Of a stretch of 64,000 nucleotides of DNA, positions 1,462-26,644 are shown one piece after another. A model generated the notes under the pieces. The model saw only the letters and a list, made by a program, of their open reading frames with translations, did not search any database and was not told the origin of the DNA. The position numbers and the translations under genes were made by a program. This DNA is from Arthrobacter russicus (GTDB lineage Bacteria > Actinomycetota > Actinomycetes > Actinomycetales > Micrococcaceae), in contig NZ_JAVDQF010000001.1 in NCBI RefSeq assembly GCF_031454135.1, positions 1,302,001 to 1,366,000 of the forward strand. Direction: 5' to 3'. How positions within the stretch are numbered: position 1 is the stretch's first letter; the number at the start of each line of letters is the position of its first letter.

Positions 1462-3225
1462 GTGCCCACTATCACCAAGGTCTTGATCGCCAACCGCGGC
1501 GAAATCGCCGTCCGCGTCATCCGTGCCGCCCGGGACGAAGGCATCGCCTCGGTCGCGGTCTATGCCGAGCCTGACCGCGATGCCCTGCACGTCCGACTGG
1601 CCGATGAGGCGTGGGCCCTGGGTGGGCAGAGCGCCGCCGAATCGTATCTGGTGATGGACAAAATCCTCGACGCCGCACAGCGCTCCGGTGCCGATGCCGT
1701 GCACCCGGGTTACGGCTTCTTGTCGGAGAACGCCGAGTTCGCGCAACGGGTGATCGACGCCGGCCTGACCTGGATCGGCCCGTCGCCTGCCGCGATTTCG
1801 AAGTTGGGCGATAAAGTCCAGGCCCGGCACATCGCGGAAAAGGTCGGCGCGCCCTTGGTGCCGGGCACCAAGGACCCGGTGCAGAACACCCAGGAAGTCC
1901 TCGACTTCGCGGACGAATTCGGTCTCCCCTTGGCGATCAAGGCCGCCTACGGCGGCGGCGGACGCGGCATCAAAGTGGTCCGGGACCGGGCGGACATCGC
2001 GGAATCCTACGAATCCGCCGTGCGCGAGGCAGTAGCCGCCTTCGGCCGCGGCGAATGCTTCGTGGAACGCTTCCTGGACTCGCCCCGGCACGTGGAAACC
2101 CAGTGCCTGGCCGATGCGCATGGAAATGTCGTGGTGGTCTCCACCCGGGATTGCTCGTTGCAACGTCGGAACCAAAAGCTCGTCGAGGAGGCACCGGCGC
2201 CTTTCCTGAGCGAAGACCAGAACGCGCGCCTGTACGCCGCGTCCAAGGCCATCTTGAAAGAAGCCGAATACCAAGGCGCCGGAACCTGCGAGTTCCTGGT
2301 CGGCCAGGACGGGGTGATTTCGTTCCTCGAGGTGAACACCCGGCTGCAAGTGGAACACCCGGTCTCCGAAGAAGTCACCGGCCTGGACCTGGTCCGCGAA
2401 CAGTTCCGGCTGGCGCGCGGCGAGGAGTTGGGTTACGGCGATCCGCAAGTACGCGGCCATTCGCTCGAGTTCCGGATCAACGGAGAGGATCCGGGACGGA
2501 ATTTCATGCCCGCCCCGGGCACCGTGGAGACCCTGAAACTGCCCACCGGTCCGGGCGTCCGGGTGGATTCCGGGATCGAAGCCGGCGAGGTGATCGGCGG
2601 CAATTTCGACTCGATGCTGGCCAAGTTGATCATCACCGGAGCGACCCGGCAACAGGCGCTCGAACGTTCGCGCCGCGCCCTGGCCGAGATGGAGATCCTC
2701 GGCATGCCCACGGTGCTGCCGTTCCACCGCGCGGTGGTCAGCGATCCGGCTTTCACGAGCGAACCGTTCAGTGTGCACACCCGCTGGATCGAGACCGACT
2801 TCGTGAACGACCTGCCCGCCTTCGTGCCGGGTGCGCCAGCCGACACGGACGATGACGGCGAGCGGCAACGCGTCACGGTCGAGGTGGGCGGCAAACGGCT
2901 CGAGGTGGTCCTGCCTGCCACGCTGGCCGCGGCCGGACGCGCCTCGGCGGCCAAGGCCAAGCCCAAAAAATCGGGCCGGGCCCGGGGCGCGACCGCCAGC
3001 AATGCTGACGGCGATGCCCTGACTTCGCCGATGCAGGGCACCATCGTCAAGGTCGCGGTGGCCGATGGCGATGCGGTCGCCGAAGGCGATTTGATCGTGG
3101 TGCTCGAGGCGATGAAGATGGAACAGCCGCTCACCGCGCACCGGGCCGGCACGGTTCACGGCCTCTCCGCCTCAGCTGGCGACACGGTCTCCGCCGGATC
3201 GGTCATCGCCACCATCGAAGACTGA
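1462..3225 (+). CDS. accA3: Acyl-CoA carboxylase alpha chain (biotin carboxylase + biotin carrier)
   Basis: 587 residues. It carboxylates its own biotin with ATP and bicarbonate; a separate beta subunit transfers the carboxyl group to acetyl- or propionyl-CoA for fatty-acid and related lipid synthesis. The order is biotin carboxylase N-domain ([25 protein letters not shown]), ATP-grasp (glycine loop [30 protein letters not shown]), C-domain, an Ala/Lys linker around 480-515 and a C-terminal biotinyl domain with EAMKMEQP. The biotinylated lysine is residue 552 (codon 3115-3117). The GTG at 1462 has the strong ribosome site AAGGAG. The two-domain architecture is the actinobacterial AccA/BccA type. 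The beta subunit is not in this window. Confidence 0.96.
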
Positions 3226-3278
3226 CCCGACGCACCGGAAGCACTCCACCGACCCCGCGCCTTTTCCGGGGAAGTCGG

Positions 3279-4676
3279 CTAGCTGGACTGCGCCACCAGG
3301 TCGGCGTCCTTGGTCTCCTTGGACAGGTAGAGCGCAATCAGGGTCAGCACCGCCATCGAACTCAGATACACGCCGACCAGCCAGGTACTCCCCTGCGCTG
3401 CTTGCCACAGGGCCACCGCGATGAACGGGGCGACGGCGGCACCCAGAATGCTGGCGAGGTTGTAGCTCACCGCAGAACCGGTATAGCGCACATTGGTCGG
3501 GAAGAGTTCCGGTAGGAACGCGCCCATCGGGCCGAAGGTCAGCCCCATCAGGGTGAACCCGATGATCAGCCAGGCCATCGCACCGACGAAGCCGCCTGCC
3601 ACCAAGGGCACGAAACAGAGCCCGAACAGGAAGATCAACCCGGTGACCACCAGAAGCGACTTGCGGCGCCCGTACTTTTCCGCCATCGGCCCGGCGACCA
3701 AGGTGAAGATGCCGAAGAACACCACGCCGATGATCAACATCAGCAGGAAGTCGTTGCGGCTGTAGCCCAGACCCGGCACGAAGGCTTCAATCGCGGTTTG
3801 GCTCATCGGTTTGCCGGCCTTCTCTGCCGCCGCCTTGGCCGCATCCAGGCTGGCGGCGGTGGTGCCGAAGGTCAGGGTGAAGGTCGTCATCAGGTAGAAC
3901 AGCACATAGGTCGCCAGCATGATGAAGGTGCCGAGGATGACCTGCCACCAGCTGGTCCGGAAAACCCGGCCGATCGGAAGCTTGGAGACTTCGCCTTGGT
4001 CGACGACTTTTTGGAAGGCCGGCGTCTCCACCAATTTGAGCCGGACGTAGAGGCCGATCACCACCATCACCGCGCTGGCCAGGAACGGAATCCGCCAGCC
4101 CCAAGCCGCGAAAGCGTCCGCCGGCAACGTGACGTTGAGCACCAGGAACAACAGATTCGCCAGGATGAAACCGATCGGCGCGCCGAGCTGCGGGAAAGTG
4201 CCGTAGATCGCACGCTTGTTCCGCGGCGCGTTTTCCGTGGCCAGCAAGGCCGCACCGCTCCACTCGCCGCCCAGCGCCAAGCCCTGGGCGAAGCGGAATA
4301 CCACGAGCAGGGCCGGGGCCCAGAATTCCCAGCCCGGCACCTGCGCGGTCGGCAGACAGCCGATCAGGAACGTCGCCACGCCCATGGTGAGCAGTGACGC
4401 GACCAAGGTCCCCTTGCGTCCGAACCGGTCGCCGAAGTGGCCGAACAGGATCGAGCCCAGTGGCCGGGCCACGAAGGCCACGCCGAACACCGCGAAGGAA
4501 CTGAGCAGTTGCGTGACGTCGTCGGCATTGGGGAAGAACAGCTTGGGGAACACCAGAACTGCAGCGGTCGCGTAGACGTAAAAGTCGTAAAACTCGATCG
4601 AGGTTCCGATCAGACTTGCTACGATCACACGCCCTCGTGTGTTCGCCTGGGGTATTTCGGTTTTTGCTGTCGACAT
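3279..4676 (-). CDS. MFS transporter, metabolite:H+ symporter (MHS) family
   Basis: 465 residues with about 12 hydrophobic segments. It begins with the MHS hallmark GTSIEFYDFYVYATAAVLVF, followed by the loop motif FGHFGDRFGRKGTL between helices 2 and 3 and RFAQGLALGGEWSGAALLATE in helix 4. The family includes ProP, ShiA and KgtP and imports organic acids or osmolytes with protons; the substrate cannot be predicted here. A GTG at 4706 would add ten residues, but the ATG at 4676 has GGAAAG nine bases upstream and gives the usual N terminus. It is a lone gene, convergent with the carboxylase gene. Confidence 0.88.
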   Translation of the reverse strand: MSTAKTEIPQANTRGRVIVASLIGTSIEFYDFYVYATAAVLVFPKLFFPNADDVTQLLSSFAVFGVAFVARPLGSILFGHFGDRFGRKGTLVASLLTMGVATFLIGCLPTAQVPGWEFWAPALLVVFRFAQGLALGGEWSGAALLATENAPRNKRAIYGTFPQLGAPIGFILANLLFLVLNVTLPADAFAAWGWRIPFLASAVMVVIGLYVRLKLVETPAFQKVVDQGEVSKLPIGRVFRTSWWQVILGTFIMLATYVLFYLMTTFTLTFGTTAASLDAAKAAAEKAGKPMSQTAIEAFVPGLGYSRNDFLLMLIIGVVFFGIFTLVAGPMAEKYGRRKSLLVVTGLIFLFGLCFVPLVAGGFVGAMAWLIIGFTLMGLTFGPMGAFLPELFPTNVRYTGSAVSYNLASILGAAVAPFIAVALWQAAQGSTWLVGVYLSSMAVLTLIALYLSKETKDADLVAQSS

Positions 4677-5995: not shown

Positions 5996-6114
5996 CGGTG
6001 GCTGCTCTTCGGTGGACTCCTGGGATTCGGTTTCTGGAATCTACCAACGACGACCGGCTCCGGAAGGCGATCTGCCATTTGGCTGCCCGGACCCTGCACC
6101 AAGGACTACCCGAA

Positions 6115-6129
6115 GGGGCAACCTGCCCC
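6115..6129 (-). terminator. Possible hairpin downstream of the crotonase gene
   Basis: GGGGCA (6115-6120) and TGCCCC (6124-6129) form a perfect 6-bp stem with a 3-base loop, 17 bases past the crotonase stop in its direction of transcription. There is no T-run after the stem, so a weak or factor-assisted terminator is the most that can be said. Confidence 0.35.
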
Positions 6130-6146
6130 GGAGAACCGAACCCTGT

Positions 6147-6803
6147 TCAGAAGGTGCGCAGCGAAGCCGCCGCGGATTCGAACAGCCTGGACTTGATCGT
6201 GCCCAGGGTGTCCTGGTCTTTGCCCAGCAGCGAAGCCGCCAGTTCTTGCCCTGCGGCTGCCAGCTCGGTTTCGGAAACCGCCCGGTCCACGATTCCCCAA
6301 TGCACCGCATCGGCACCGGAGATCCGCTGTCCGGTGACCATCGAGGCCACTGCCGCCTGCGGGGTCAGTTTCGCCTGGATCAGGGCTGTCATCCCGGGGG
6401 TGAAGGGGATCTTGATGTCGACTTCCGGGAAGCAGAAGTAGCCGCGGTCCACCCGCATGATCCGAAAGTCGTGGGCCAAAGCCAGCATGGCACCGGCGCC
6501 GAAGGCATGTCCGTTGACCAAGGCGACGGTCGGCACCGGCAAGGTGAGAAAGCGGGCCAACAACACCTGGACCCGGGCCGCATAGTCGTTGAACTGGTCC
6601 AGATGCTGCTGCACCCATTCCAGATCCAGGCCGTTCGAGAAGAACTTACCGGCACCGCTGGTCACCAGAACCGAGGAGTCGCTGCTGACGACTTCTTCGA
6701 GCGCGGCCTCGACGGCGGTGAGCCAGGCCTCGCTGAAACGGTTCTCATCGGTTCCCAAGGCCAGGAAAGCGATTCCGTCGCGGTGTGCCAAGATTTCCTG
6801 CAT
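6147..6803 (-). CDS. Enoyl-CoA hydratase/isomerase family protein
   Basis: 218 residues, shorter than the usual ~260 of crotonases. It shows both oxyanion-hole regions: SGAGKFFSNGLDLEWV and ALVNGHAFGAGAMLALAHD, followed by FPEVDIKIPFTPGM. The FPEVD...PF block resembles delta3,delta2-enoyl-CoA isomerases, so an isomerase acting on unsaturated fatty acyl-CoA is my best guess; a hydratase is not excluded. The ATG at 6803 has AGGA about nine bases upstream. It follows the flavoprotein gene by 29 bases on the same strand and is probably cotranscribed with it. Confidence 0.83.
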   Translation of the reverse strand: MQEILAHRDGIAFLALGTDENRFSEAWLTAVEAALEEVVSSDSSVLVTSGAGKFFSNGLDLEWVQQHLDQFNDYAARVQVLLARFLTLPVPTVALVNGHAFGAGAMLALAHDFRIMRVDRGYFCFPEVDIKIPFTPGMTALIQAKLTPQAAVASMVTGQRISGADAVHWGIVDRAVSETELAAAGQELAASLLGKDQDTLGTIKSRLFESAAASLRTF

Positions 6804-6832
6804 CAATGAAGTCCTTTCGGTGTCTGCCGGTT

Positions 6833-8248
6833 TTACATGTGCACGTGCAGCCGCCGCGCGGCTTCGGAGATCGAGCCGGACAACGACGGGTAAACCGTGA
6901 AGGTGTTGGCCAAATCGTCCACGTGCAATTTCTGCGTCACCGCGATGGCGATCGGGAAAATCAGTTCCGAGGCATTTGCGCCGACCACCACGCCGCCGAT
7001 CACGGTGCCGGACCCCTTGCGGGCGATGATCTTGATGAACCCGTCTTTCGCATTGCGCATTTTCGCCCGGGCGTTGGTCTGCAGCGGCAGTTTGACCACA
7101 TCGCCCTGGTACCTGCCGGACTCCAGATCCGCTTCCGAGATGCCCACCGAAGCGATTTCCGGCGAGGTGAAAATATTCGACGCCACCTGGGTCAGCTTGA
7201 GCGGGCGCAATCCGTCACCGAGCAGGTGCGCCATTGCGATCCTTCCCTGCATTGCGGCCACCGAGGCCAAAGCCAGCACCCCGGTGCAATCGCCGGCCGC
7301 GTAAATATGCGGTGCCGAGGTCCGGGAAACCCCGTCGACCTTGATGTGGCCCGACTCGGTGAGCGCCACCCCGGCGGCCTCCAGGCCGATGCCCTCGGTA
7401 TTCGGAATCGAGCCGACGCAGACCAAGCAGTGCGTTCCGCTGATTTGGCGGCCGTCGGAAAGCGTGACCAGCACCCCGTCTTCGGTGCGTTCCACCGACT
7501 CGGCCCGGGATTGGGAAAGCACCGTCATGCCGCGGCGCTCGAAGACGTCCTCCAGCACTTCGGCGGCATCCGAGTCCTCACCGGGCAGCACCTGGTCGCG
7601 CGACGAAATCAAGGTCACCCGTGAGCCCAGGCCGTTGTAGGCCGAGGCGAATTCGGCCCCGGTGACCCCGGAACCCACCACGATCAGTTCGCGCGGGAGT
7701 TCGGTCAATCCGTAGATCTGCGCCCAGTTCAGGATCCGTTCGCCGTCCGGCTTCGCCGTCGGCAGCTCGCGCGGATGCGCGCCGACCGCGAGCAGGATCG
7801 CGTCCGCGGTGATCTGCTCGACGCCGTCTTCCGTGGTCACCTCGATCGTATGGTGGTCCAGCATGGTGCCTTGGCCGATGATGATCCGGACCCCTGCGTG
7901 CTCCAGGCCCGCTTTGATGTCCGCCGACTGTTCCCGGGCCAAGCCGAGCAGCCGGTCGTTGACCTGCTTCAGGTCCGCGCGCATCAACGGTACGCAGTCC
8001 CCGCCGTCGACGTCGAAGCGCACGCCGAGGTCGGTCGCGCCTTCGAAGCGGTTCATCACGTCTGCGGTCGCGATCAAGGTTTTCGACGGGACCACATCGG
8101 TCAGGACGGCGGAGCCGCCCAAACCATTGCGTTCGACGATCGTCACCTGGGCGCCCAGCGCCGCGGCCACCATCGCAGCTTCGTATCCGCCCGGGCCACC
8201 GCCAAGAATCGCCAGGGACGGAACATTCATATCGCTAGGTGTCGTCAC
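6833..8248 (-). CDS. NAD(P)H-quinone reductase, lipoamide-dehydrogenase-like flavoprotein without redox cysteines
   Basis: 471 residues. FAD-binding GGGPGGYEAA near the N terminus, NAD(P)-binding VVGSGVTGAEFASAY in the middle, AGDCTG and a C-terminal dimerisation domain identify the pyridine nucleotide-disulphide reductase fold. Where lipoamide dehydrogenase has two active-site cysteines this protein has GLGGSAVLTDVVPSKTL, with neither cysteine. That is the pattern of mycobacterial LpdA (Rv3303c), which reduces quinones rather than disulphides. The GTG at 8248 gives an N terminus (TTPSDMNVPSLAIL) like those I recall from relatives; the ATG at 8230 is the alternative. The purine nucleoside phosphorylase gene is divergent, as in mycobacteria where both genes lie close together. 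Confidence 0.9.
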   Translation of the reverse strand: MTTPSDMNVPSLAILGGGPGGYEAAMVAAALGAQVTIVERNGLGGSAVLTDVVPSKTLIATADVMNRFEGATDLGVRFDVDGGDCVPLMRADLKQVNDRLLGLAREQSADIKAGLEHAGVRIIIGQGTMLDHHTIEVTTEDGVEQITADAILLAVGAHPRELPTAKPDGERILNWAQIYGLTELPRELIVVGSGVTGAEFASAYNGLGSRVTLISSRDQVLPGEDSDAAEVLEDVFERRGMTVLSQSRAESVERTEDGVLVTLSDGRQISGTHCLVCVGSIPNTEGIGLEAAGVALTESGHIKVDGVSRTSAPHIYAAGDCTGVLALASVAAMQGRIAMAHLLGDGLRPLKLTQVASNIFTSPEIASVGISEADLESGRYQGDVVKLPLQTNARAKMRNAKDGFIKIIARKGSGTVIGGVVVGANASELIFPIAIAVTQKLHVDDLANTFTVYPSLSGSISEAARRLHVHM

Positions 8249-22260: not shown

Positions 22261-23361
22261 TCAGTTGGCGTTGCAGCCGACGTGCGCGGCGAGGCCGAGC
22301 AGAATCCCCGGATAGTTGAGGATCGTCCGATTGCCCACGGTCGCGACCGGCGAGGACCAGAGGATGTTGGATCCGGCCGAGTTGACCAGTCCACCGCCGG
22401 AGACCAGCACTGAGAAGATGTTGATCCGGAAGGTGGTCGGTCCGCTCAACAGGCCGAGCAACGCGCCGGCCGGGGTGAACGTGTAAGTGGTGATCCCGGC
22501 GGCGGTGCCCGCATAGCCCATCACGGTATCCGTCGTCCCATCGGCCTTCAACCGGACGATCTGCAGCGCATAGCTGCCCTCCGGCGGGAGGAACGGCGCC
22601 GGGTTCCAAGTGATCGTGGCATTCGGGAAGGCCTCGCTGCAACCGATGCCTCCGGTGATGTCCAGAAGCCTGGCGCTGCGCAACGTGCCGCCAGTGGCCA
22701 CGCTGGAATCGGTGAATGCGGCCAAAGTGGCCTGGCCGGAGCCGCTGAAGCAGAATGCCGCCAGCGGAACCAGCAGGAGCACCAGCGCCCCGGTGGTTGC
22801 CGTCGGCGTTTTCCGCACCGGCCGGAACGCGATGAAAATCAGCCCGCCGGCGATCAGTCCGCCGGCGAAGATCGCCCACGGAGTCTGCAGGAAAGCCACC
22901 GGATAGCCGAGTCCGTTGACCGCGAAGAACACCCGGTCCACCTTTTCGGCTGAATACGGCTGCGGGTCCGGCAACGCATTCGCATCGCCTTTGAGGACCA
23001 ACTGCCCGGTGGCGCCGGGCGGCGCGGAAACCACCTCGACCACCCGGTGCGTGATCCGCTGCCCGCCGGAGTTGAAGACGCTGACCACGTCGCCGGACCG
23101 GACCTCGGCCACCGGCACGGGACGGGTCAGCGCCAGAGCACCGGTGTCGATCGCGGGAGCCATCGAGCCGGAACGGAAGATCACCGGTGTGATGCCGAAC
23201 AGCATCGCCGCCGCAGCCGCAAGCAGGCACAGCAGACCGGCCGCTGCCCCGGCGGTGAGCAGGACCTCCCGGAGCCTCCGGCCCGCAGCCATCCCGGCCC
23301 GGCGCGGCCTGGCCCCGGCCGTGCTGCGGCGGCCCTGGAGGATCGTGGAATCCGGATGCAT
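22261..23361 (-). CDS. SipW/ER-type signal peptidase fused to an alternate-signal exported domain
   Basis: 366 residues. Residues ~30-180 are an S26 signal peptidase of the SipW/ER type: a membrane anchor at 33-58, catalytic Ser66 in RSGSMAP, His105 in QRITHRVV in place of the bacterial lysine, and Asp126/Asp132 in KGDANALPDP, then a second membrane segment at 162-179. After basic RPVRK there is a third hydrophobic stretch (191-205) followed by ATLAAFTDSSVATGGTL, which lines up with the AAW-x-D signal-peptide signature of the three exported proteins in this operon. The remaining ~140 residues look like an exported beta-rich cargo (GPTTFRINIF, NATITWNPAPF). The protein therefore appears to be peptidase plus substrate. 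ATG 23361 lies 14 bases after the preceding gene. Confidence 0.82.
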   Translation of the reverse strand: MHPDSTILQGRRSTAGARPRRAGMAAGRRLREVLLTAGAAAGLLCLLAAAAAMLFGITPVIFRSGSMAPAIDTGALALTRPVPVAEVRSGDVVSVFNSGGQRITHRVVEVVSAPPGATGQLVLKGDANALPDPQPYSAEKVDRVFFAVNGLGYPVAFLQTPWAIFAGGLIAGGLIFIAFRPVRKTPTATTGALVLLLVPLAAFCFSGSGQATLAAFTDSSVATGGTLRSARLLDITGGIGCSEAFPNATITWNPAPFLPPEGSYALQIVRLKADGTTDTVMGYAGTAAGITTYTFTPAGALLGLLSGPTTFRINIFSVLVSGGGLVNSAGSNILWSSPVATVGNRTILNYPGILLGLAAHVGCNAN

Positions 23362-23375
23362 TGCAGGCGTTCCGG

Positions 23376-23975
23376 TCAATTCTGCACTGCGCTGAAGTTG
23401 AAGACGATCACACCGGTCTGGTTCTGCAGCGTGCTCGGCGCTGCGGCGTCCAGCCAGCCACGGACGCAGAGTTGCTCCGTACCGGCGGCGGCCAGCGAAC
23501 GGACCGCAGTCGCGGCTCCGCCGATCTTCCCGCTGTAGATCTGCCCGGCGGTCGTGGTGGCGGTGCAGGTCGGACTGACGTAGATTCCGATGTTCAGCCC
23601 GGCCGGGTCTTCGACCAGGGTCCCGGTCCCGGTCACCGCGATCTGGTAACCGAAGTTGAGCGTGCCGTTGTTCCGGACCAGCAGCGGTTTGAATACCCCG
23701 ACGCCGCCGGGAGCGATTCCGGTGCCGTTGAAATCGCTGAACGAGTAAGCGGTGTTCGTGCCCACGGCGCCATCGCTGCTGGCTGATCCCTGGCGCAGCG
23801 AGAGATCCACGGATCCCGCCACGAAAGTCCCGGATGTCACCGCGCTGGTGTCCTGCCAGGCGGCCAATGTCCCGACCACGCCCAGACCCAGCACCATGCC
23901 CAAAGCGAGCAGTGCCCGCACCCTGGCGGACAGACCGCGGTACCAGGGTGTTGTCGGCGAGACGTGCTTGCTCAT
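23376..23975 (-). CDS. Exported protein with SipW-type alternate signal peptide (199 residues)
   Basis: Arg-rich N terminus, hydrophobic core LLALGMVLGLGVVGTLAAW and then WQDTSAVTSGTFVAGSVDL, matching the signal-peptide class cleaved by SipW-like peptidases (TasA/camelysin type). The mature part (~155 residues) is Gly/Thr/Ser-rich with predicted beta strands and two cysteines (SPTCTATTTAG, GTEQLCVRGWLD) that could form a disulphide. The start overlaps the LPxTG gene (ATGA) and the fusion peptidase follows after 14 bases, so it is likely a substrate of one of the two peptidases. It may be a matrix or fibre subunit; the role is inferred. Confidence 0.8.
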   Translation of the reverse strand: MSKHVSPTTPWYRGLSARVRALLALGMVLGLGVVGTLAAWQDTSAVTSGTFVAGSVDLSLRQGSASSDGAVGTNTAYSFSDFNGTGIAPGGVGVFKPLLVRNNGTLNFGYQIAVTGTGTLVEDPAGLNIGIYVSPTCTATTTAGQIYSGKIGGAATAVRSLAAAGTEQLCVRGWLDAAAPSTLQNQTGVIVFNFSAVQN

Positions 23976-24772
23976 TCGGTCCTCTCAAGGGGTTGGTTCC
24001 GTCGGCCCAGAAGCTGCATCCCGCTGCCTGCAGCAACCAGGATCGCGGCCAGTACCAGGATCGGCAGGCCGACCGCGGGCAAGCCGGTGGTCGGCAGTTG
24101 CGGCCCTTCCGCGCCCGGCAGGCCGCGGGAATCGACGCCGCCGGCCGCGGCGTTCGACCCAGCTGCCGCGTTCGCGCTCGCGTCCGATGCAGCTGCCGCG
24201 TTCGCGCTCGCGTTAGATGCAGCTGCCGCGTTCGCATTCGCGTTCGCGTTGGCATCGGCATTCGCGTTGGCCTCGGCGTTCGCGTTGGGGTCGGCAGCGC
24301 TCTGCCGCAAACTCAGCTCGAACCCGGCCGGGAAACTCTGCAGCTCGGCCTGGTTCCCGGCACCGGCAGTCAGTGCGATCTTCAAGGTGAAATGATTGCT
24401 CTGCCCTGCCGGAAGCGGGAACAGAACCGTACCGGCGCTGCCCAGCAAACGGTCGCCGTCGGCGGTCGAAGCGCGCAACTGCACCGTGCCGTCGGCGATC
24501 AAGCCCTGCCAACTCGGCGCAGTCACCTTGGCACTGAGTTCTGCCGCGGACTGCCCGCCGTTGCGGACCCAGAGCTCGGCGCTATGGCTCTCCCCGGGGA
24601 CCAGCTTTTGGCTCAGATCGAAAACCGACGCCGGAAGATTCTGCCCCCAGTGGACCCCGTCGGCGCTCAACTCGAGTTCCCCGGCGGCCTGTGCCGCCGG
24701 GACGAATCCGCCGATCAAGCTGCCGAACACGAGGGAAAGCACGGCCAACGGCCGCAATACCCGGCGGATCAT
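23972..24772 (-). CDS. LPxTG-anchored surface protein with Asn/Ala-rich stalk
   Basis: 266 residues. A classical signal peptide (residues 1-32, ending PAAQA-AG) differs from the alternate signals of its neighbours. A ~125-residue beta-rich domain (ELELSADGVHWGQNL, SAELWVRNGG) follows, then a ~50-residue low-complexity stalk of Asn-Ala and Ser-Asn-Ala units, the sortase motif LPTTG at 226-230, a hydrophobic helix and a basic tail GRRNQ. It should be joined to the cell wall by a sortase, none of which is in this window. ATG 24772 overlaps the upstream peptidase stop and the end overlaps the next start, so it lies firmly inside the operon. It may anchor the SipW-type proteins to the wall. Confidence 0.82.
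   Translation of the reverse strand: MIRRVLRPLAVLSLVFGSLIGGFVPAAQAAGELELSADGVHWGQNLPASVFDLSQKLVPGESHSAELWVRNGGQSAAELSAKVTAPSWQGLIADGTVQLRASTADGDRLLGSAGTVLFPLPAGQSNHFTLKIALTAGAGNQAELQSFPAGFELSLRQSAADPNANAEANANADANANANANAAAASNASANAAAASDASANAAAGSNAAAGGVDSRGLPGAEGPQLPTTGLPAVGLPILVLAAILVAAGSGMQLLGRRNQPLERTE
24160..24249. repeat. 30-base tandem repeat encoding the Asn/Ala stalk
   Basis: About three copies of a 30-base unit (24160-24189, 24190-24219 and a diverging third, 24220-24249) sharing CAGCTGCCGCGTTCGC. Each codes for a ten-residue Ala/Ser/Asn unit. The adjoining 24250-24295 continues as shorter Asn-Ala dipeptide repeats. Copy number could vary by slippage, changing stalk length. Confidence 0.75.
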
Positions 24773-25401
24773 CGCAGCACCTCGTGCCGTCGGCGCCAGT
24801 CGCGCCAAGCACCGAACAGCATTGCCGCCGCATAGCCCAATAACGCAGTGACCGCCAGGACCAGGAGCACCATGTGCAATTGCCCGTTGATCACCATGTT
24901 CAGGTAGCCCAGCAACGGCACGGTGTACCAGAGCACCCCGCGCAATTGCACCGGCCGCACCGGCTCGGCGTCCGGAGCATTGTTGGCATCGCCCTGGGTG
25001 ACGAACCGCTGGCTCCCGTCAGTGCCGATCGAAAGCCCGACGACCCGGTGGGTCACCACCTCGGATTGCCCGGAAACCAGTTGGTAAGTCACTACCGAAC
25101 CGATCGCCACTTGATCCGCGGCAACCGGCTTGACCACCACCAGGTCGCCGGGCTGGATGCCCGGCGACATCGAACCGGTGAGCACGGTGTAACTCTCCGC
25201 CCCGGCCACCCGGGGCACCACGATGAGCACCGCGAGCACGGCCAGGACCAGGAACAAGAACAGCCAGGAAGCAATCTGGCCGATCCACCAGAATATCCCG
25301 GCCCCGGCGGTCCGCCGATGCCGGCCGGTACCCGGTCCCGCAGCGCCAGCCGGCTCCGGCCGGCCCCGCAGCGCCCGGCGACGCAGTTCGACCGCGGTCA
25401 T
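24769..25401 (-). CDS. SipW/ER-type signal peptidase I
   Basis: 210 residues. A basic N-terminal tail is followed by a membrane anchor (about 44-66), catalytic Ser77 in VLTGSMSPGI, His118 in SEVVTHRVVG replacing the usual bacterial lysine, the GDANNAPD box (Asp138, Asp144) and a C-terminal membrane helix (about 178-198). The Ser-His arrangement is that of SipW, archaeal and eukaryotic signal peptidases. It should cleave the alternate signal peptides of the flanking genes. It overlaps both neighbours by four bases (ATGA), showing coupled translation. Confidence 0.9.
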   Translation of the reverse strand: MTAVELRRRALRGRPEPAGAAGPGTGRHRRTAGAGIFWWIGQIASWLFLFLVLAVLAVLIVVPRVAGAESYTVLTGSMSPGIQPGDLVVVKPVAADQVAIGSVVTYQLVSGQSEVVTHRVVGLSIGTDGSQRFVTQGDANNAPDAEPVRPVQLRGVLWYTVPLLGYLNMVINGQLHMVLLVLAVTALLGYAAAMLFGAWRDWRRRHEVLR

Positions 25402-25993: not shown

Positions 25994-26560
25994 CTAGCGG
26001 GTCTGGACAAGCGTGAGGACCAGGCCACTGAGATTGGCATTCTGGTTCTCGATGGTTTCGTCGTCTGTCCCGGAAGCTCCGGTCCCTTTCGCGAAGGCGA
26101 CCGTGACGCCCACCCCGAAGCTGTAACTGCCCGGTGCCGCGAAACTGAGCACTCCTCCGGTGTTGGTCAGGCCTGCGGGAATGTTCTCCGGCACGATGGT
26201 CACGGTGACGTAGGGCTGCCAGGCAGCCGGAATTGCGGCATTCACCGACGTCGGATCGATCGTCAGCGAACCCTTGAGGTTCTTTCCATCCGCGGTGATC
26301 GTGACGTTCTGGGTGAACTTCACGGTATCCCCGGGGACGAGCTTGAAAGTGCTCATGTCGATGGTCGGGGCCCCGGTGACGTCAGCCGAGACGTCTTTCC
26401 AGGTGCCAGCGGCACCAAGTGCGAGTTTGAGCTGGCCGGTGGCTACCTGGCCGGCGTCTATGGTCTTGTTGTCCTGCCACAGGGCCCAGGTGGTTCCACC
26501 CCCCAGCAGGAGCAAACCCGCAATGCCGGCGGCAATACCGGCTTTTGCGATTTTGTTCAT
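25994..26560 (-). CDS. Exported protein with SipW-type alternate signal peptide (188 residues), first operon gene
   Basis: MNKIAKAG opens a hydrophobic core (GIAGLLLLGGG) followed by TTWALWQDNKTIDAGQVATG, the TasA/camelysin-like signal signature. The mature domain is beta-rich (TIDMSTFKLVPGDTVKFTQN, GKNLKGSLTIDPTSV, PGSYSFGVGVTVAF) with no cysteine, closest in style to TasA-type fibre subunits and to the alternate signal-mediated exported family of rhodococci. ATG 26560 has GAGGAT seven bases upstream. It heads the six-gene operon, whose promoter must lie in 26561-26669. Fibre formation is inferred, not shown. Confidence 0.83.
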   Translation of the reverse strand: MNKIAKAGIAAGIAGLLLLGGGTTWALWQDNKTIDAGQVATGQLKLALGAAGTWKDVSADVTGAPTIDMSTFKLVPGDTVKFTQNVTITADGKNLKGSLTIDPTSVNAAIPAAWQPYVTVTIVPENIPAGLTNTGGVLSFAAPGSYSFGVGVTVAFAKGTGASGTDDETIENQNANLSGLVLTLVQTR

Positions 26561-26644
26561 TTTCGGATCCTCACTGTATCTGCTTCCCCCCGAAAGCATC
26601 ACTTAGAAGATACGCCTGCTTAGTGTTTTCGCACCATCCTACGA

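Follow-up and report, generated by a model that had tools for sequence, protein, structure and literature searches.

Signal peptidases are known to act in trans on substrates that are separate proteins. Gene P0001, on the minus strand of a stretch of 64,000 nucleotides from Arthrobacter russicus (contig NZ_JAVDQF010000001.1, positions 1,302,001 to 1,366,000; here called the window), raises the question whether such an enzyme can carry a substrate of its own kind in the same chain, as an earlier note on this DNA had proposed. Our analysis indicates that P0001 is almost certainly a signal peptidase fused to a substrate of its own kind, and that such fusions are real and recur in many actinobacterial genera.

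The fused gene and its two halves

P0001 is read from an ATG start at 23361 to a TGA stop at 22263-22261 on the minus strand, the plus strand over 22261..23361 being interrupted by stops. The order of parts given in the earlier note, that is one intact open reading frame leading from a peptidase through a basic linker and a hydrophobic stretch to T-L-A/A-F-T-D (the slash marks the predicted cut) and a beta-rich domain, is borne out, and the parts are located as follows.

22261..23361, minus strand: P0001 gene, SipW/Sec11-type signal peptidase with internal substrate, 366 amino acids (aa), conserved in relatives
23197..23298, minus strand: first transmembrane segment (TM1), residues 22-55, AlphaFold2 helix 22-55
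22912..23196, minus strand: catalytic domain, residues 56-150, containing Ser66, His105, Asp126 and Asp132
22828..22881, minus strand: second transmembrane segment (TM2), residues 161-178, AlphaFold2 helix
22792..22827, minus strand: basic linker, approximately residues 179-190, expected to be cytoplasmic, from sequence
22747..22791, minus strand: third hydrophobic segment (TM3), internal and signal-peptide-like, residues 191-205 from sequence, AlphaFold2 helix 193-204
22714..22728, minus strand: predicted cleavage site T212-L213-A214/A215-F216, with A214 at 22720-22722 and A215 at 22717-22719
22312..22677, minus strand: fibronectin type III (FnIII)-like domain, residues 229-350, from AlphaFold2 model and structural match

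The first half is a member of TIGR02228, the archaeal and endoplasmic reticulum (ER) type of signal peptidase I (S26B), with 57.8 bits over residues 44-160 at a cut-off of 51.85. The catalytic motif of S26B enzymes consists of Ser, Asp and a His that replaces Lys, and P0001 possesses the Ser, His and Asp which enzymes of the TIGR02228 type need. Ser66, His105, Asp126 and Asp132 stand where the earlier note had placed them and are invariant in 59 aligned fusions. P0001 falls outside the SipW equivalog of Bacilli, NF046067, with 45.7 bits far below the cut-off of 190. Structural matches of the peptidase part were SPase I, SipA and SEC11C, the top one being Streptococcus pyogenes SipA (4n31), which is titled a signal-peptidase homologue essential for pilus polymerisation. 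SipA is without catalytic residues and is not known to be joined to a subunit, whereas P0001 retains the catalytic residues.

In the second half, what had been described as about 140 beta-rich residues was modelled as a fibronectin III fold over residues 229-350, and structural matching of this model assigns the extension to the fibronectin type III domains. In the alignment of 59 fusions A214, the predicted P1 residue, is the sole invariant column of the extension, the other invariant columns lying in the catalytic core and at a few N-terminal positions; C241 and C363 are conserved to 90%, short of invariance. The linker varies from 10 to 143 residues among 58 fused relatives. When the window is compared with the relative nearest to it, the ratio of non-synonymous to synonymous substitution (dN/dS) is 0.19 in the peptidase (7 non-synonymous differences) and 0.23 in the extension domain (9), so that both halves show signs of purifying selection at a small number of differences. 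In the comparison with G002 the synonymous sites of the extension are saturated.

Separate counterparts and the history of the fusion

Homology to separate exported proteins supports the proposal that the peptidase bears a substrate of its own kind within its chain, as a search for the extension outside peptidase proteins revealed separate versions with an export signal of their own. The fused extension of genome G159 shares 65% identity over 145 aa (E 5e-53) with a separate exported protein of G257 from the same genus (g10), and 51% identity over 183 aa including the signal (E 5e-43) with a separate protein of G009 from another genus; the match to G310 is weak (E 1e-5) and none was obtained in G219 at E<=0.01. 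A profile of the fused form aligned to a profile of the separate form in hhalign gave 93.7% (E 1.9e-7). In G009 and G024 an unfused peptidase is followed by a wall-type protein and then by the separate exported protein, which has an alternate signal peptide of its own; in G017 the wall-type protein is the fusion partner of the peptidase, and the separate exported protein lies downstream.

Split and fused forms were also found in Prescottella (split, with a 4-base overlap) and Rhodococcus erythropolis (fused), whose proteins match at E 5e-16 and which belong to one trio of unsettled branching order in the peptidase tree. Of six split neighbours compared with fused extensions, three match at E<=1e-3 and three do not. 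Because split and fused orthologues exist within one genus, the substrate can be assigned without guesswork, and the homologous separate proteins with N-terminal alternate signal peptides identify it by orthology as one of the SipW type. The extension of P0001 thus descends, by this sequence kinship, from a true SipW-type substrate; its substrate-like status follows from orthology to separate substrates and not from its score with the model TIGR04088. The earlier note had been prepared to give up its proposal for an extension lacking an export signal in every relative, for a site unlike alternate signals, or for two merged genes; separate exported versions, conservation across genera and a motif resembling alternate signals were found instead.

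A tree of the peptidase domains (148 domains, 149 columns, quick search) leaves 58 of its 145 inner branches open and does not distinguish gain from loss. A group resembling P0004, the second and unfused peptidase of the window's operon, contains 54 rows, namely 53 unfused peptidases and one wall-protein fusion. The P0001-like paralogue (89 rows, with a Shimodaira-Hasegawa-like approximate likelihood ratio test [SH-aLRT] value of 97) comprises 58 alternate-signal fusions, 8 wall-type fusions and 23 unfused peptidases; the 5 rows outside both groups are unfused. The alternate-signal fusions require no fewer than 7 changes of state, 3 of them forced by strong branches, and the wall-type fusions require 4, of which 3 are forced. 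From these changes, together with a P0004-type fusion in Acaricomes, we conclude that the peptidase and its neighbouring gene were fused or split several times.

In Acaricomes (L050, G003; the Acaricomes phytoseiuli record in L084) a P0004-type peptidase continues in frame into a wall protein of the P0003 type; the fusion of L050 lies on the reverse strand at 3054-4541, and the counterpart of this wall protein in the window is a separate, overlapping gene. A second class of fusions joins a P0001-type peptidase to a wall-type protein with a conventional-looking signal (L053, L054, L055, L169, L170, L173, L190 and L192-L195), and all except L053 end in an LPxTG-like pattern.

Among the unfused rows of the paralogue clade 20 of 23 were inspected by eye (L131, L142 and L144 were left out), and in 17 of them an exported protein of alternate-signal or wall type comes next on the same strand, its gene starting where the peptidase gene ends, at the stop region or within it. 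The three exceptions are L103 (contig edge), L126 (no such gene) and L196, which appears frame-broken. In L196 (G222) the peptidase frame stops before TM2, and TM2 lies in another frame joined to a wall-type protein, which may represent a broken fusion or a sequence error.

The architecture of P0001 is shared within the genus by G002, G003, G004, G005 and G121 and occurs in other genera as well. The scan of named genomes used patterns taken from seven fusions and is therefore biased towards fusions; it confirmed 95 relatives, and among the best 80 a long extension is present in 58, from Micrococcaceae, Rhodococcus, Nocardioides and others, and absent in 22. An extension profile matches 33 of 295 family genomes, including the window genome and a genome of the same species; 25 of the 33 matches lie in frames of fused size (367 codons or more) and 8 in frames of the size of a separate gene (159-256 codons). 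Across a sample of the class, 39 of 394 genomes contain a match to P0001 at E<=1e-12; of the 46 places hit, 28 fall in open frames of 330 codons or more, which is a count of frames and not of proven extensions. A plasmid search with P0001 returned 7 records, none of which reached 80% query coverage. A record titled Sporosarcina beigongshangi (L122) holds a fused gene that closely resembles the one in G029, which belongs to the window's family and is no relative of Bacillus; this record may be mislabelled or contaminated.

The predicted cut and competing readings

The site behind the internal hydrophobic stretch was counted with a strict motif, T-x-A-x-[FWY], in one 27-residue window behind the most hydrophobic stretch. 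This motif is present in 37 of 58 fused relatives (38 of 58 when the whole extension is taken), as compared to 1 of 115 TM1/TM2 windows of the same fused proteins and 5 of 263 windows behind hydrophobic stretches in downstream open frames, which are frames unverified as genes. The internal site motif, as counted in these sequences, is well above background. In two of the misses, L075 and L098, the window had landed on a different hydrophobic stretch. A loose version of the motif, passed by 58 of 58 fusions, was too permissive and was discarded for counting.

As the earlier note suggested, the motif resembles alternate signals, but membership in TIGR04088 did not follow: at a cut-off of 19, P0001 scores 16.5 bits (E 0.0072) and the isolated extension 17.8 bits (E 0.0027), a borderline result just under the threshold. 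Since this model was of little help, we trained a position matrix on 40 hand-picked windows of separate substrates, in an alignment which favoured an aromatic P2'. Applied to 74 distinct fusions, it gave Thr at P3 in 59, Ala at P1 in 69, Phe, Trp or Tyr at P2' in 59 and Asp at P4' in 48; it outperformed shuffled sequences at p<=0.05 in 45 of the 74 and chose an implausible site in 13.

The reading that we favour, and hold to be rather probable, is that P0001 is a two-in-one secretory precursor which is cut at A214/A215 and sets free, or at first presents, a surface protein destined for a TasA-like filament. TM1 and TM2 would hold the catalytic domain on the outer side and lead the chain back into the cytoplasm, whereupon the basic linker and TM3 would act as an internal Sec signal and bring T-L-A/A-F to the outer membrane surface. 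An S26B active site would then cut after A214, be it that of P0001 itself (in cis or from a neighbouring copy) or that of P0004. The peptidase would stay in the membrane and an FnIII protein with a loose N-terminal strand would be freed, and therefore peptidase and minor subunit would be made one to one. The freed protein could serve, in the manner of TapA, as initiator or base piece of a TasA-like filament or matrix module whose other parts are encoded in the operon.

The steps of this reading differ in strength. That the predicted site is cut is probable from its sequence; a role of the released protein in a filament is a tentative suggestion, and cleavage in cis is conceivable rather than expected. 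The same reserve applies to the fuller picture of a self-processing membrane polyprotein, in which the S26B site would cut its own internal signal in cis and provide one enzyme per filament-initiating subunit, the arrangement having arisen more than once in Actinomycetota through fusion with the neighbouring operon gene. Two observations weigh against the predicted site as the constrained part of the extension, namely that TIGR04088 matches only 7 of 59 fused proteins at E<=0.1 and that a Rhodococcus group has Gly instead of an aromatic residue at P2'. Residues 205-229 have a predicted local distance difference test (pLDDT) score below 50 in the AlphaFold2 model, which therefore does not inform on docking of the site in the active site. 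The site of TasA, with an aromatic P2' and Trp at P2, resists LepB (PMC10269814).

In the Rhodococcus fusions concerned (L069, L070, L073, L079, L081, L082 and L086) T-L-A/A is kept, P2' is Gly as against Phe or Trp elsewhere, and long Thr/Pro stalks and a further C-terminal part are present.

Alternatively, TM3 might be a permanent anchor and the bond remain uncut, the FnIII domain standing beside the peptidase as a docking or nucleation platform, that is a TapA-like seed fixed to the enzyme. The presence of the fused form in many genera, the Thr/Pro stalks in Rhodococcus, the pilus-associated SipA as top structural match and the reported location of TapA, membrane-associated and at the filament start (PMC10151520), would all suit such a tethered subunit. 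An invariant Ala at P1 and a near-constant Thr at P3 would be superfluous in a pure anchor, however, and the orthologues are separate proteins with N-terminal signals; we regard this alternative as unlikely.

Still less probable is an ordinary accessory domain of the peptidase family, for example for substrate recruitment, in which the motif would be a relic of fusion. Such a role would agree with the near constancy of the extension within a section of the paralogue clade, where 56 of 62 rows have it, and with the variety of the extension domains (FnIII, laminin G [LamG]), but the separate orthologues carry full signal peptides, the motif persists while linker and domains vary, and other fusions link the same enzymes to wall-type proteins. 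In L099, a Nocardioides metagenome-assembled genome (open frame 6010-7434), the extension appears to be a laminin-G/ConA-like lectin domain and not FnIII; Laminin_G_3 matches 1 of the 59 fused members (E 1.1e-20), and the assignment of this match to L099 is a reading of the L099 sequence.

Internal translation starts, by which one frame would give two products and a separate C-terminal precursor be made partly apart from the peptidase, are very improbable. Split versions do start at the stop region of the peptidase or inside it, and GTG or TTG is present in 28 of 58 linkers, which would allow a minor role. ATG is found in just 10 of 58, however, and internal ATG starts were rejected as a general explanation; moreover, the frame stays open even though overlaps of 4 to 8 bases suffice for the split versions at the six junctions examined. 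Finally, a frameshift or a sequencing or assembly error that merged two genes, a danger raised in the earlier note, is rejected and has next to no probability left, because the fused architecture is conserved across genera, being read in named genomes of many of them and in the 25 of 33 profile-matching family genomes with frames of fused size.

The operon and related systems

On the minus strand the gene order is P0006, P0005, P0004, P0003, P0002, P0001, with three overlaps of four bases and two gaps of about 14 and 20 bases at the junctions. The site motifs that the earlier note quoted from the three separate exported proteins are correct.

23376..23975, minus strand: P0002, separate SipW-type exported protein (VGTLA/AWQDTS), TIGR04088 30.8 bits, over the cut-off of 19
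23972..24772, minus strand: P0003, exported wall protein with LPTTG and an Asn/Ala-rich stretch, Gram_pos_anchor 16.2 bits, below the cut-off of 20
24769..25401, minus strand: P0004, second SipW-type signal peptidase, unfused (pep1), TIGR02228 88.6 bits
25398..25973, minus strand: P0005, separate alternate-signal exported protein (AGTAA/LWRDQ), TIGR04089 27.4 bits (E 3.1e-6) and TIGR04088 15.4 bits, both below cut-off
25994..26602, minus strand: P0006, TIGR04089 exported subunit and candidate major filament subunit, 165 bits, over cut-off, first ATG at 26560

This context is, from the gene content of the loci, conserved around the fusions: of 52 fused loci with at least 4.5 kb of upstream sequence, 46 have a P0004-like peptidase on that side and 44 have a substrate that resembles P0006, P0005 or P0002. 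The substrates of TIGR04088/TIGR04089, of which P0002 and P0006 are members over cut-off, share signal layout and site letters with P0001; in P0001, unlike in these, the signal is internal, behind the peptidase, and the score stays below cut-off. TasA was not among the matches of the P0006-family profile to PDB sequences, the best row being a nanobody (E 0.0034), and phmmer gave no match for P0006 and no credible one for P0002.

The closest known arrangement is tapA-sipW-tasA of Bacillus subtilis where, as in the operon of P0001, a SipW-type peptidase adjoins its substrates. In B. subtilis, however, peptidase and TapA are separate genes, whereas P0001 unites the peptidase and an FnIII-like substrate in one chain and a second, free peptidase, P0004, is present. 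SEC11A and SEC11C, the catalytic subunits of the ER signal peptidase, are not known to carry a fused substrate domain, unlike P0001, and work within a complex. TapA combines a complete Ig domain with a flexible N-terminal part which donates a strand to TasA (PMC10151520, PMC9674648).

Among the papers listed in an open-access library, with subscription papers mostly outside its coverage, we found none on a peptidase-substrate fusion, nor an experimental description of an Actinomycetota surface filament or matrix module of the sort towards which the fusion points. Maintained in many actinobacterial genera, and with a presumed P1 alanine no less constant than the catalytic residues, the fusion offers a natural system in which cis cleavage by a membrane peptidase could be tested.

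Two further observations concern the window and its genome. P0003 contains a long Asn/Ala-rich stretch of low complexity ahead of its LPTTG region (window 24140-24305), and the same genome possesses a second SipW-type locus (L062, G000:C1:177000-186000) with an unfused peptidase, two alternate-signal proteins and an LPxTG protein.
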